Below are positions 5,648 to 10,513 of a DNA stretch of 64,000 bases, in pieces; within the stretch, counting starts at the first letter, position 1, and each line of letters begins with the position of its first letter. The stretch lies in NCBI RefSeq assembly GCF_010091925.1, contig NZ_WVID01000011.1, positions 124,001 through 188,000 of the forward strand. Direction: 5' to 3'. The translations under genes were made by a program, and so were the position numbers. The stretch comes from Nostoc sp. B(2019) (GTDB lineage Bacteria; Cyanobacteriota; Cyanobacteriia; Cyanobacteriales; Nostocaceae). The notes under the pieces are model-generated. The model was not told where the DNA came from. It worked only from the letters and a program-made list of their open reading frames with translations, and made no database searches.

Positions 5648-6705
5648 AATACTGCCACCAATCTAACTCTGTTTAATTACGGGGTTGATGCTATCTGTGT
5701 GCTTTAGCTAGGTATCACTGCTTTGTGACATTCTCTCAAACCCAAATTTTAAACGAAGCTTTACTTTATTTAAAACTCTGGTAAGAGATGACTAACTTTA
5801 TTCTAAGTGGATACTTAGAAGCTTTTTAATACATCCACTAACTACCCTGTGGATATAAAAGGATTTAGCAAAAAGCTTTTAGCTTTTTTTGTGTCGCCAG
5901 TTTCCTTGCAGGTGATGAGCATTAGCTCATCAAGGTGCTATTCGTGTCTTGTGCTGTGTTCCAATTGTAGCAGTAGCTCTTTTTTAAAGAAATTTTTAGC
6001 TAGTGCTGACATACCTGGGTAGTCTTGCTGATAATGCTATACTAATTACCCAACTCGCTATCCAGAACTATTTTCTGGAAGTGCGCTCTAAATCTACAAT
6101 AATGAAGATAAGGTTCGCCCTCACTGCTTATTGGGCTGCTTACCTAATTGTTACCGATTCTACGTATGGGAAAATTGGGTTTATCGGCAGTTTCTCCTAG
6201 TTAAACATCAGAGTCTAATGGCGTAAGATTACCTTCAGTCTAGACAATCAAACACCTGTGGTTTTCACGCCACTTGCTCTACTTGGGGAGGCCCCATCGC
6301 ATGATTGCGTCTCCCCTTGGGAGAAGACCGCAGTGGCTTCCCTGCATAACGCTTTTGGAAAGCATGGATTCTCTAAACCCAGCTTCTCAAAAAACCGTTG
6401 CATAATTACCTAGTAGGGCAAAATTTTAATCAGGCGTACTTTCTAAGTTTGGTTAGATGAGGGAACTTAAACGCAGGCGAACTCTGAGAGCGTCGTGCAG
6501 TGAGAAGTTCAAGGGTCGGCTTCCTTCTCTTGGAACTTCGGGAGCCTTGCCGCAGGGCAATTCGTTTCCAGTTAGTGTCTGTAAGCCGTGAGGGCATACA
6601 GGAAAGAACCAGATGAAACAACGGATACTTTGCAAAGACGGAGGGAAACCCCCGCATGCAAGTTTTATCAAAAAATGATGTTTTGACCAAAGGTCGGTTC
6701 ACTGC
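5648..6705. other. Gene-free 1.06-kb gap with hairpins and palindromic repeats
   Basis: I see no convincing gene here. The stretch holds a hairpin AAAAAGC-TTTTA-GCTTTTT followed by T (5870-5888, terminator-like), an 8-bp perfect stem TGATGAGC-ATTA-GCTCATCA (5913-5932), a palindrome GGGGAG...CTCCCC enclosing CGCA-TGAT-TGCG (6285-6316), and GAAGTTC...GAACTTC around a GC-rich core (6504-6549). The short open frames at 6003-6200 and 6430-6702 run through these repeats and look incidental. The promoter of the RNase R-like gene must lie at the right end; I cannot pick out a confident -10/-35. Confidence 0.55.
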
Positions 6706-9060
6706 ATGGAATTTTCAATCGCTACACTCCTTGCCAATTTCACCGATGATAAATTGGTAGCTCGTAAAGTTTTAGAAAAGAAACTTGGTTGCGAGGATGA
6801 AGACAGTTTACAAAAACTTCACATTGCCTTGGATGTTCTGGAAAAAATCGGTATTTTAGTAAAAGAACGAGGCAAGTACCGCCGTGTCACAGAAGAGGGA
6901 ATAATTGAAGCAAAACTTCGTTGTTCGAGTAAGGGCTTTTGCTTCGCTATTCAAGATGTGGAAGGAGCCGAAGATATTTACATCCGCGAAAGTCATTTGA
7001 GTAATGCTTGGAATGGCGATCGCGTTTTGGTAAGAGTTCTCAAAGAAGGTAGTCGCCGCCGCTCTCCCGAAGGAGAAGTCAAGCTAATTCTAGAACGCTC
7101 CAACCATACTTTACTGGCACGGATCAAGCAGGTAGAAAGCGGTTTCCGGGCTGTACCCTTAGATGATCGATTACTGTTTGAACTCAAAATTCAGACCAAT
7201 GGTGCGAAATTAGAAGAAGCGATCGATCACCTTGCTCACGTAGAAGTCCTGCGTTACCCATTGGCACAATATCCCCCATTGGGCCGGGTAGTCCAAATCC
7301 TCGGCAGCGATGCTGAAGCCGCTGCTGATATAGATTTGGTAACATGTAAGCATGACCTTTCCCGCAATTTCCCGGATAACGTGCTCGAAGCAGCAGCAAA
7401 GTTACCCAAAAGATTGCTAAAAGCAGACCTGAAAAATCGTCTTGATTTACGTAATTTGTTTACCCTAACCATCGCAGGGGTGAATGGTGACTCTAAGGTT
7501 ATAGAAAATGCTTTCAGCTTGGAAAGAACCTCATCCGGAAATTGGCTTTTGGGCGTTCATACCAGTGATGTTTCCCACTATGTTCAACCCGACGAACCCC
7601 TAGATAGAGAAGCATTTAAGCGAGGAAAGTCAGTTTATCTGGGAGAGTTAATGCTGCCAATGCTGCCAGACAGCGTAGCAGAACGCTGTTCTTTAGTACC
7701 TGGAAGCGATCGCCTAACCATCTCTTTTCTAATTACCATTGACCCACAATCAGGACAAGTGGTGGAATGGGAAATTCAATCCAGCGTCATTAAAGTAGAC
7801 ACAGCATTAACTACAGAACAAGCTCAAGCAATTCTGGCGGGTCAACCTAAAGAGAAATCCGCAGAGGTGATCGAGACACTGCAAGACCTGCAAACTTTGC
7901 AAAAAGCAGTAAAACAGTCACGGTTAGCTCGTGGGAGCCTACAGTTAAATCTGCCACCCAGCCAAAATCCCTACTATGATGAGGGGATTCTGGGAGCCGT
8001 GGTAGTGAATGATTTACCTGTGCGATCGCTATTAACGGAGTTCGTACTACTAGTTAATCAACTGGTAGCAAACCACTTAAGCGCCCTAGGTATTCCCGCT
8101 ATCTGGAGAGTCCAAGGCTCACCGGATACCGAAGATGTCCAAGAAATGCTGAAATTGGCAATCAATTTAGGCGTGGAACTGTCACTAGATCCAGAAGTAG
8201 ATATCCAACCCCTCGATTATCAACAGTTAACCAGAGCTTTTGCAGAATCTCCTTCTGAGCAAGTTCTGACCTACTTGTTGCAAGATACCCTCAAGCCAGC
8301 TGTGTATACCACCACCAAAGGATCTCACTTTGGTCTGGCGCTACCGCAATATACCCACTTTAGCGCCCCCTTACGGCGTTACCCAGATTTGCTGATGCAG
8401 AGGGTGTTTTATTCGCTACTTGAACATGGGCGCGATCGCCGTAATACCCGTGTCAAAGAACGTGTAAATCTCCGCCACTCCTCTTGTCATCAGGAAATCA
8501 ACTGGAACGTTTTACCCCCAGAATTGCAACAAGAACTTCAAAGCGATTTGACTAGGGTAATTGTCCAAATCAATGACCGGGAAAAAGAAGTCCAAGAAGC
8601 CGAAGCTGATTTAGCAGGACTGCAAAAAGCCCAACTGATGAAACAGCGCATCGGTCAAGTCTTTCAAGGCGTAATTACCGGTGTTCAATCCTACGGTTTC
8701 TTTGTAGAAATTGAAGTACCAGCAGCAGAAATTGAGACCAGCGGTAATCCTGGTGTGCCTTTGAGGGTTGAAGGACTAGTACATGTCAGTTCACTTAAAG
8801 ACGATTGGTATGAATATCGTGCCAGACAACAGGCTTTGTTTGGTCGCAAAAATCGCGCTTCCTATAGATTAGGCGATCGCGTTGCTGTACAAGTTAAAAG
8901 TGTCGATTACTACCGCCAGCAAATTGACTTGGTAACTGTCGGTAGCGATGGTGTAGCTAAAGGCTCATCTCTAGGTGGATCCAATGATGATCCTTCAGAT
9001 CTCTACTTACCCAATGACATCGAATCTGACGACATAGACCCTTATGCGGAGGATGAGTAA
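6706..9060 (+). CDS. RNase II/R-family protein lacking the catalytic aspartates
   Basis: Order and length (784 residues) fit RNase R: N-terminal winged-helix and cold-shock-like regions, an RNB core (about 235-570) and a C-terminal S1 RNA-binding domain (about 648-760, GQVFQGVITGVQSYGFFVEI at its start). Core landmarks are kept: GVHTSDVSHYV, PLDREAFKRGKSVY, PMLPDSVAERCSL and HFSAPLRRYPDL (551-562). However, the metal site, which reads TIDGEDARDFDDA in E. coli RNase R, here reads TIAGVNGDSKVIENA (255-269), so all four catalytic Asp are missing, and the IHDKP motif is WRVQGSP (467-473). I infer an RNA-binding protein without hydrolytic activity. ubiX follows after 17 bp, suggesting one operon. 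A tail of acidic residues ends the protein. Confidence 0.9.
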   Translation: MEFSIATLLANFTDDKLVARKVLEKKLGCEDEDSLQKLHIALDVLEKIGILVKERGKYRRVTEEGIIEAKLRCSSKGFCFAIQDVEGAEDIYIRESHLSNAWNGDRVLVRVLKEGSRRRSPEGEVKLILERSNHTLLARIKQVESGFRAVPLDDRLLFELKIQTNGAKLEEAIDHLAHVEVLRYPLAQYPPLGRVVQILGSDAEAAADIDLVTCKHDLSRNFPDNVLEAAAKLPKRLLKADLKNRLDLRNLFTLTIAGVNGDSKVIENAFSLERTSSGNWLLGVHTSDVSHYVQPDEPLDREAFKRGKSVYLGELMLPMLPDSVAERCSLVPGSDRLTISFLITIDPQSGQVVEWEIQSSVIKVDTALTTEQAQAILAGQPKEKSAEVIETLQDLQTLQKAVKQSRLARGSLQLNLPPSQNPYYDEGILGAVVVNDLPVRSLLTEFVLLVNQLVANHLSALGIPAIWRVQGSPDTEDVQEMLKLAINLGVELSLDPEVDIQPLDYQQLTRAFAESPSEQVLTYLLQDTLKPAVYTTTKGSHFGLALPQYTHFSAPLRRYPDLLMQRVFYSLLEHGRDRRNTRVKERVNLRHSSCHQEINWNVLPPELQQELQSDLTRVIVQINDREKEVQEAEADLAGLQKAQLMKQRIGQVFQGVITGVQSYGFFVEIEVPAAEIETSGNPGVPLRVEGLVHVSSLKDDWYEYRARQQALFGRKNRASYRLGDRVAVQVKSVDYYRQQIDLVTVGSDGVAKGSSLGGSNDDPSDLYLPNDIESDDIDPYAEDE

Positions 9061-9077
9061 AATCAACCAATACATCT

Positions 9078-9698
9078 GTGTCAAATAACACTAAGCCTCT
9101 GATTTTAGGCGTATCAGGCGCATCTGGTCTGATTTACGCTGTTCGTGCTATCAAGTTTCTATTAGAAGCGGAGTATAGGATTGAACTAGTTGCTTCTAAA
9201 TCAACCTACATGGTTTGGCAATCGGAGCAAGATATCCGTATGCCATCAGAACCCACTACACAAGAGCAATTCTGGCGAGAGCAAGCCGGAGTTGCACTTT
9301 TAGGTAAACTACGCTGTCACCCTTGGAGTGATGTCGGAGCTAATATCGCCAGTGGTTCCTTTTCCACTCTGGGGATGATTGTCATGCCATGTAGTATGAG
9401 TACAGTGGCAAAGCTAGCAGTTGGCTTAAGTTCCGACTTACTCGAACGGGCCGCAGATGTCCAACTCAAAGAAGGACGAAAGCTAGTCATCGTCCCCCGT
9501 GAAACTCCTTTTAGCCTGATTCACTTGCGTAACTTAACAACTTTGGCAGAAGCCGGAGTCAGAGTTGTCCCTGCTATTCCCGCTTGGTATCATAATCCCC
9601 AAACCATTGAGGATTTAGTTGATTTTGTAGTTGCCCGTGCTTTAGATCAACTAGATATTGACTGTATCCCAATTCAGCGGTGGCAAGGTCGTCGTTAA
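9078..9698 (+). CDS. ubiX: Flavin prenyltransferase UbiX-like
   Basis: UbiX joins dimethylallyl phosphate to FMN, making the prenylated flavin needed by UbiD-type decarboxylases; in cyanobacteria this probably serves plastoquinone synthesis (decarboxylation of the 4-hydroxybenzoate-derived ring). The 206-residue protein opens with the flavin-binding motif GVSGASGLIYAVRAIKFLL, and contains MIVMPCSMSTVAKLAVGL and VPRETPFSLIHLRNL, both typical of the family. The start is GTG at 9078; no in-frame ATG precedes the flavin motif. The gene is 17 bp after the RNase R-like gene and probably shares its transcript. The remaining question is only UbiX versus a close paralogue of the Pad1 type. Confidence 0.93.
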   Translation: MSNNTKPLILGVSGASGLIYAVRAIKFLLEAEYRIELVASKSTYMVWQSEQDIRMPSEPTTQEQFWREQAGVALLGKLRCHPWSDVGANIASGSFSTLGMIVMPCSMSTVAKLAVGLSSDLLERAADVQLKEGRKLVIVPRETPFSLIHLRNLTTLAEAGVRVVPAIPAWYHNPQTIEDLVDFVVARALDQLDIDCIPIQRWQGRR

Positions 9699-9805: not shown

Positions 9806-10513
9806 ATGGCTGTAATTCGTTTAATTCTGTTGGTGGCTGTACTGGGAGGACTAACGCTATTATTAGTCCAAAATTGGTCACCTGCCCTATCGCTAGTATT
9901 TTTGGGTATGCGAACTCAACCCTTACCACTAGCGATGTGGATTTTATTTAGTACTGCCACTGGTGCTTTCACATCTATAGCGATCGCTACTTTGTTTAAA
10001 TTATCCAATTATTTTACAGGAGGGCAACGCCAAACTTCTTACAAATCAACCGCAACTTCATCACGTGCGAAGGCAACTCGTAAAGAAGAGCCTACACCCT
10101 CCCCTGCTAGTCCCCCACCACCAGCTAGTAAAACAAAATACCCTACCAGTGATGAATTTGATGATTGGGAGACAAATAGTAGTGGAGATGATGATTGGAA
10201 CTTTGATGAAAAGCCCGAACAAGAGCCTACCCCTAGTACTAAAACTCAACAGGTTAGAGACTCTCAAACCTACGAACGTCAACAACCACAACCTAAAAGC
10301 ACCTCTGAGTCTGGTTCGGTTTACTCCTACAGCTACCGGGAACCAAAAAATACTGCTGCGGGAAAAACTGAATCAATTTACGATGCTGATTACCGGGTAA
10401 TCATCCCTCCTTACCAAGCACCGACTACGAATCAAGCGGACGCCGACGATGATGATGATTGGAAATTTTTTGATGACGATTCAGAGGATGGAGATGAACG
10501 CTCCCGTCGATGA
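9806..10513 (+). CDS. LapA-like membrane protein with acidic disordered tail
   Basis: The first about 85 residues form a LapA/DUF1049-like module with two membrane segments: LILLVAVLGGLTLLLVQNW (about 5-23), with the VQN motif characteristic of the family, and PLAMWILFSTATGAFTSIAIATLF (about 40-63). The rest, to residue 235, is low-complexity: Pro/Ser/Thr-rich, then patches of acidic residues with Trp (DDDDWKFFDDD). In E. coli LapA works with LapB in envelope quality control; the job in cyanobacteria is not known. A second, shorter LapA-like gene lies at 36173-36451. The ATG at 9806 is the first codon of the hydrophobic segment and is well placed. Confidence 0.78.
   Translation: MAVIRLILLVAVLGGLTLLLVQNWSPALSLVFLGMRTQPLPLAMWILFSTATGAFTSIAIATLFKLSNYFTGGQRQTSYKSTATSSRAKATRKEEPTPSPASPPPPASKTKYPTSDEFDDWETNSSGDDDWNFDEKPEQEPTPSTKTQQVRDSQTYERQQPQPKSTSESGSVYSYSYREPKNTAAGKTESIYDADYRVIIPPYQAPTTNQADADDDDDWKFFDDDSEDGDERSRR

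Follow-up and report, generated by a model that had tools for sequence, protein, structure and literature searches.

The gene at positions 6706 to 9060 of the window (the whole 64,000-nucleotide stretch of DNA that was analysed) is zam, its product is the protein Zam, and this protein together with the second RNB protein of the same genome is the cyanobacterial Zam/Rnb pair. Zam has already been described (Thomas et al. 2022, PMC9145284), hence the identification is a correct rediscovery and not a new family. Alignment with E. coli RNase R strongly supports the view that the window protein is a pseudonuclease whose canonical site has been lost. We consider it probable (about 0.7) that Zam is a redox-gated pseudonuclease, derived from an RNase R-type ancestor, which modulates RNase E and/or binds RNA. 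The additions to the published Zam are modest: a graded erosion of the site, a family that lacks the redox cysteines, and a conflict in the literature.

Identity of the gene and its former metal site

The features of the gene and of its downstream neighbours are as follows (f1 is the window's own family of Zam loci, which probably corresponds to Nostocaceae).

6706..9060, + strand: zam coding sequence for a 784-aa protein of the RNB family, active site degenerate
6913..7086, + strand: CSD1 (OB_RNB domain, Pfam PF08206), residues 70-127, with the strongest constraint of all parts tested
6922..6942, + strand: C73 and C79, the redox cysteine pair, within the RCSSKGFCF loop; the redox-active cysteines of PCC 7002 bear the same numbers
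7153..7374, + strand: CSD2 cold-shock domain (Pfam PF17876), residues 150-223
7438..8424, + strand: RNB domain (Pfam PF00773, 299.8 bits), residues 245-573
7468..7512, + strand: former metal-binding motif TIAGVNGDSKVIENA, residues 255-269, with A257, V265, E267 and N268 in place of the four Asp
8110..8118, + strand: V469-Q470-G471 where RNase R has I-H-D, by alignment; not diagnostic
8374..8391, + strand: RRYPDL, residues 557-562, an RNB landmark that is kept and aligns with RRYPDL 571-576 of E. coli RNase R
8644..8940, + strand: S1 domain (Pfam PF00575), roughly residues 647-745 with the best-matching stretch at 687-742, under strong constraint
8941..9057, + strand: C-terminal tail, residues 746-784, little conserved, with pLDDT <50 over 754-784
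9078..9698, + strand: ubiX-like flavoprotein gene, 206 aa (Pfam PF02441), 17 bp downstream of zam, probable operon partner
9806..10513, + strand: ORF of 235 aa without a name, third in the zam-ubiX-ORF order of f1

The zam frame starts with ATG and contains no internal stop. Several features by which Zam is recognized were found: Pfam detected two cold-shock domains followed by RNB and S1, C73 and C79 are present in CSD1, and a separate intact Rnb is encoded alongside. Pfam identifies two RNB proteins in the genome (7.4 Mb in 109 contigs), namely the window protein and Rnb (L002), and the site of the latter reads TIDDESTTEIDDG. Membership of Rnb was rejected for the window protein, because the wH_RNase_II/HTH_RNase_II domains that Pfam finds in Rnb were not found in it.

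The closest solved structures by sequence were RNase R enzymes (8cdu, E 7.9e-100; E. coli RNase R, 5xgu, 1.8e-74). An AlphaFold2 model (38-sequence alignment, pLDDT 86.6, pTM 0.83) was compared by Foldseek with E. coli RNase R (5xgu_A), which gave a TM score of 0.84 by target length and 0.68 by query length. Among the NCBIfam models the window protein was nearest to RNase R, with a TIGR02063 score of 479.6 bits, below the cut-off of 597.85; this score and the missing four metal-site Asp set it apart from an active RNase R. The sequence-only reading had described an RNase R-like body that retains the fold landmarks of RNase II/R. The aligned RRYPDL, the S1 domain and the predicted fold bear this out, and the architecture was rightly described, but the named and published family, Zam, went unrecognized.

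The window protein was aligned by MAFFT with E. coli RNase R and RNase II (both from NC_000913). Residues D272, D278, D280 and D281 of RNase R correspond to A257, V265, E267 and N268, so that all four metal-site positions are substituted, with the charge preserved at D280 (E267). The alignment, a check that had been proposed with the sequence-only reading, places no intact Asp in the site, and both the claimed replacement by TIAGVNGDSKVIENA and its residue numbers (255-269) are correct. Passages of PMC8097288 assign magnesium binding to Asp 1, 3 and 4 and contact with the RNA 3′ end to Asp 2, and report that changing these residues abolished activity; the window protein has none of the four, and a Glu at one position. 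Since the metal site is lost, the window Zam should not cut RNA by the mechanism of the family.

Among the 34 f1 loci (window copy included), D262 and E267 were found in 34/34 and N268 in 33/34, and the four Asp in 0/34. The site change is real and no sequencing accident, because its letters are kept across these loci. A sequencing error or a pseudogene was rejected on the same ground, and on a whole-gene dN/dS of 0.073.

A second sign of inactivity had been seen in the IHD motif. The change itself stands, in that R-I-H-D of RNase R reads R-V-Q-G here, but it carries no weight as a sign of inactivity and was rejected as such: Gln occupies the His position also in the genome's own intact Rnb and in each of the six out-of-class RNB proteins that were read, whose sites are intact. 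In E. coli RNase II the corresponding residues are N-V-H-M.

The flavoprotein gene is presumably ubiX. Its likely operon with zam, already suggested from the sequence, is sound: the gap is 17 bp, and of the 159 Zam loci with sufficient sequence downstream, 107 have ubiX after zam in the same orientation and no more than 1.5 kb away. In the f1 loci with enough DNA it follows in 33/33, and the 235-aa ORF lies on the same strand in 32/33; no Pfam family was found for this ORF. Upstream of zam, no convincing gene or ORF was found in positions 5648-6705 of the window (1.06 kb). A promoter and terminator scan near zam gave about what shuffled sequences gave (11 against a mean of 7.8, sd 2.6, and 5 against a mean of 5.2).

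Constraint, distribution and erosion of the site

The window gene was compared with 12 f1 relatives, taking CSD1 as residues 67-130. The lowest median dN/dS was that of CSD1 (0.007), followed by CSD2 (0.027), and S1 and the RNB-S1 linker stood at 0.035 each. Values were higher in RNB (0.10), near the former site (0.13) and in the tail (0.19). As a control, the genome's own intact Rnb was compared with 13 relatives, with values of 0.084 ahead of RNB, 0.052 within it, 0.049 near the site and 0.041 behind RNB. The control is no clean mirror image of Zam, since the part after RNB is even tighter than RNB, and the two comparisons rest on different sets of relatives. All these values are rough, because synonymous change is near saturation and some pairs are saturated (mean dS 0.98-1.72 for Zam and 1.24-1.70 for Rnb; usable pairs 9-12 of 12 and 8-13 of 13, respectively). 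Across 163 sequences (weighted), one residue reached ≥95% at 23/64 positions of CSD1, 21/99 of S1 and 4/329 of RNB. RNB is thus among the least constrained parts in Zam, which is not so in Rnb, in agreement with the published conservation map (PMC9145284). The claim that the gene is long, unbroken and not decaying agrees with the 784-aa frame, the whole-gene value and the low value of CSD1. As read from these substitution patterns, the loss of the canonical site in the window protein, with the rest of the protein under selection, is well supported.

At a threshold of E≤1e-38 (the best non-Zam match in the phylum-sample search was 5.3e-33), a Zam match was found in 374/388 genomes of the class, and in 329/334 among the better assemblies. 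In the phylum sample 96/194 genomes matched at E≤1e-5, seven of them from outside the class and none of these better than 5.3e-33; six of the seven were read and proved to be RNB proteins 630-680 aa long in which the four Asp are all intact. Seven of the 14 non-matching class genomes were re-examined, and a Pfam RNB search was run on 21 chosen genomes. By this search Zam was absent from G261 and G269 (family f52; L190, L191) and from G233 (f51; L185), in which the only RNB protein is Rnb. We take G261 to be Anthocerotibacter panamensis. Two irregular loci were seen. In L207 (G214) Zam is split in two open frames of 441 and 273 aa, by a frameshift or an assembly error. Near zam in another genome, an extra frame (L069, G129:C6:1830274-1830663) matches only Zam residues 612-749, with 70% identity; it is a partial Zam copy covering the S1 domain.

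The site was read in 176 Zam rows: 83 from the phylum sample, 80 from a scan of named genomes (the best 80 of 545) and 13 from early or odd lineages. The counts of 176, 163, 83 and 34 all include the window copy (L003); absent from them are G002, G045, G058, G093, G097 and G119 (six of the 89 matched genomes of the same class), the two-frame L207 and a second Zam-like copy in G263. All four Asp were found in 0/176 rows. Three, two, one and no Asp were present in 31, 25, 12 and 108 rows, respectively, and the three-Asp share (31/176) is inflated, because 80 rows come from a scan led by a three-Asp, Leptolyngbya-type sequence (29 of the 31 stem from it). In the phylum sample alone (83 rows) the corresponding numbers were 2, 5, 5 and 71. 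An Asp in the D278 column occurred in only 4/176 rows, all of Okeania or Trichodesmium, and Glu was found at the D280 position in 84/176.

The site reads D-[A/V]-D-D in Leptolyngbya, Nodosilinea and Elainella types and K-S-D-D in related Leptolyngbya types. In f1 it reads x-V-E-N and is fixed on V-x-E-N, and the motif is gone in the Gloeobacter-like f44 (six genomes) and in the picocyanobacteria-like f23 forms. We take f23 to be picocyanobacteria and genome G202 to be Gloeobacter violaceus. The erosion of the Zam site is therefore graded, from three-Asp forms, through the V-x-E-N of f1, to motif-less forms. His486 was present in 55/55 rows with both D280 and D281 versus 4/121 of the others (raw row counts, kinship included). 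On a quick LG+G4 tree of 86 representatives the minimum number of changes was 8 for D272, 6 for D280, 1 for D281 and 4 for H486; it does not establish which losses came first, because of long-branch warnings and an unsure root and direction. A long acidic-looking insert was observed at the former metal site in Microcoleus/Tychonema-type Zam (L070, L071, L144, L147, L151, L154, L155, L156, L158, L160, L161, L163, L164 and L166).

Cyanobacterial Rnb carries Glu at the second (D278) position, as D-E-D-D, in 22/22 frames, including the additional, divergent RNB protein L196 from G252. In the six out-of-class RNB proteins that were read, this position is Asp. Since three-Asp Zam forms keep the three magnesium ligands (as described in passages of PMC8097288), and the presumably active Rnb is also without the second Asp, these forms might retain some activity. 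Whether the loss is common to orthologues had been put forward as a check on the sequence-only reading. It is common in the sense that no row has all four Asp, but 31/176 keep the first, third and fourth, so that a complete loss of activity is not established in all lineages.

According to PMC9145284, CSD1 of Zam contains two invariant redox-active cysteines, C73 and C79, and replacement of either by Ser phenocopies deletion. Both cysteines were found in 169/176 rows, and the seven exceptions all belong to family f21. In all eight f21 genomes (L085, L194, L198, L199, L200, L208, L209 and the two-frame L207), RCSSKGFCF is replaced by FSRGSFW or YSRGSYW, with neither redox cysteine left, and the loop of the former site is shorter. 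The redox switch is therefore not needed everywhere. Family f21 is presumably Gloeomargarita-like, and G214 presumably Gloeomargarita lithophora.

Proposed mechanism and rival explanations

Our preferred reading of Zam as a redox-gated pseudonuclease would run as follows. Zam would descend from an RNase R-type enzyme, with the whole CSD1-CSD2-RNB-S1 body kept. The C73-C79 pair, in the RNA-contact loop of CSD1, would act as the redox switch, as others have shown in Synechococcus PCC 7002. Zam would then dock on RNase E and stimulate it, and/or hold RNA, which would place RNA turnover under redox-dependent control, and phycocyanin and photosystem balance would be affected downstream. We infer that RNase E is the target, that RNA may be bound, and that the window protein behaves like PCC 7002 Zam.

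The published data come mainly from PMC9145284, in which the Zam proteins of cyanobacteria group as a separate RNB clade, with a degenerate site. There, zam deletion led to less phycocyanin synthesis and an altered PSI:PSII ratio, with acetazolamide tolerance and pigment change among the deletion phenotypes of PCC 6803 and PCC 7002, and a redox-controlled stimulation of RNase E was proposed. Purified PCC 7002 Zam, which was prone to aggregation, showed neither nuclease activity nor RNA binding (the binding data are not shown there). The same paper identifies Alr1240 of Anabaena PCC 7120 as Zam and calls Zam a non-functional nuclease. In a review, Alr1240 is an RNase II-like enzyme that degrades unstructured RNA and stimulates RNase E (passages on Anabaena RNase II and RNase E in PMC10783494 and PMC10989914). 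The published accounts of Alr1240 thus conflict, an inactive Zam in Thomas et al. versus an active RNase II in the review. If Alr1240 is Zam, the reported activity needs contamination or a new site, because the canonical site is found in 0/34 f1 loci. The primary paper on Alr1240 is said to be that of Zhou et al. 2020. In the part of PMC10287535 consulted, alr1240-alr1241-alr1242 form one transcription unit in Anabaena PCC 7120, an arrangement that would fit alr1240 being zam. The same part lists a nitrogen-regulated antisense transcription unit, TU00785, against these three genes, and zam in PCC 7120 may be under nitrogen-dependent antisense control.

The sequence-only reading had pointed to RNA binding or a partner function without exonuclease activity. 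This interpretation is partly supported: the site is lost and the rest is under selection, but neither role is settled, given that PCC 7002 Zam showed no nuclease activity and bound no RNA and that Alr1240 has been reviewed as active. A serious alternative, to which we give less than even odds, is that Zam works mainly as an Ssd1-like, RNA-binding regulator, holding RNA on its cold-shock/S1 surface without cutting it and without any need for RNase E. The domain logic is the same and the decay is of the same kind, the constraint peaks in CSD1, and the Foldseek match of the window model to Ssd1 (7am1_B) had an E-value of 1.5e-33; moreover, the Ssd1 site given in passages of PMC8934651 (Ser704/Val709/Glu711/Phe712) is close to the A/V/E/N of the window Zam. 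However, RNase R and Dis3-type enzymes fit the fold better, with Ssd1 at rank 34, and purified PCC 7002 Zam failed to bind any of several Rnb substrates (PMC9145284, with the caveat of aggregation).

The reviewed RNase II-like activity of Alr1240 in vitro is also what would favour a Zam of the window's family that is still an exoribonuclease by means of a non-canonical site such as D262/E267/N268 or a different acidic cluster. The conservation of these three residues in f1 and the Glu at the D280 position in nearly half of the rows agree with this, but the four Asp occur in none of the 176 rows and an Asp in the D278 column only in the Okeania/Trichodesmium rows, dN/dS at the former site is 0.13 against 0.049 in Rnb, PCC 7002 Zam was inactive (PMC9145284), and a weak activity could be explained by carry-over of an E. 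coli RNase. We regard a surviving nuclease of this type as very improbable. Somewhat less improbable, though still unlikely, is a stepwise and parallel decay in which the second Asp was lost first, family-wide, and the three magnesium-ligand Asp were then eroded separately in several lineages. Under such a decay the Leptolyngbya/Nodosilinea-type Zam would perhaps be (weakly) catalytic and the rest dead, the function would have moved wholly to the redox-gated CSD1/S1 module, the switch would have been dropped in the Gloeomargarita-like family, and the f1 site would have been refrozen as D-x-x-V-x-E-N, maybe with a new structural, metal-binding or RNA-binding role. If this were true, the refrozen f1 site could account for the reported RNase activity of Alr1240. 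The graded erosion would also suit a slowly decaying, functionless RNase R relic, an explanation that we consider practically untenable: it is contradicted by the constraint (0.073 over the whole gene and 0.007 in CSD1), by the presence of a match in 374/388 genomes, and by the deletion phenotypes in PCC 7002 and PCC 6803 (PMC9145284).

A pseudonuclease of the kind we favour matters for annotation, since general databases score Zam-type proteins as RNase R. For the question of whether Zam cuts RNA, the lineage survey provides natural contrasts, namely three-Asp, fully eroded and cysteine-less forms.

Comparison with known systems

E. coli RNase R (Rnr, 5xgu) and the enzyme of 8cdu share fold, domain order and RRYPDL with the window protein and are its best sequence and fold matches; they differ in that the window protein has lost the metal site and scores below the TIGR02063 cut-off. 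Cyanobacterial Rnb (RNase II; L002) shares the RNB domain, but is acidic at all four sites (D-E-D-D) and has the wH_RNase_II/HTH_RNase_II domains, which were not found in the window protein.

Zam is known as Sll1910 in Synechocystis PCC 6803 and A1543 in Synechococcus PCC 7002, with the CSD1-CSD2-RNB-S1 order, the degenerate site, the C73/C79 numbering and one copy beside a separate Rnb in common; no functional difference is known, and the orthology of the window protein is presumed from these features and from the literature. Yeast Ssd1 differs by its eukaryotic Dis3L2 descent, its S1 and CSD1 insertions and a surface RNA-binding patch (as described in passages of PMC8934651); it is no orthologue, and its likeness to Zam is one of fold. 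In the fungal Ssd1 family, according to the portion of PMC8097288 consulted, the active site was lost at least four times and the cold-shock domains were kept. As an RNase II-family pseudonuclease that has lost the same site and conserved its cold-shock domains, Ssd1 is the nearest analogue of Zam.
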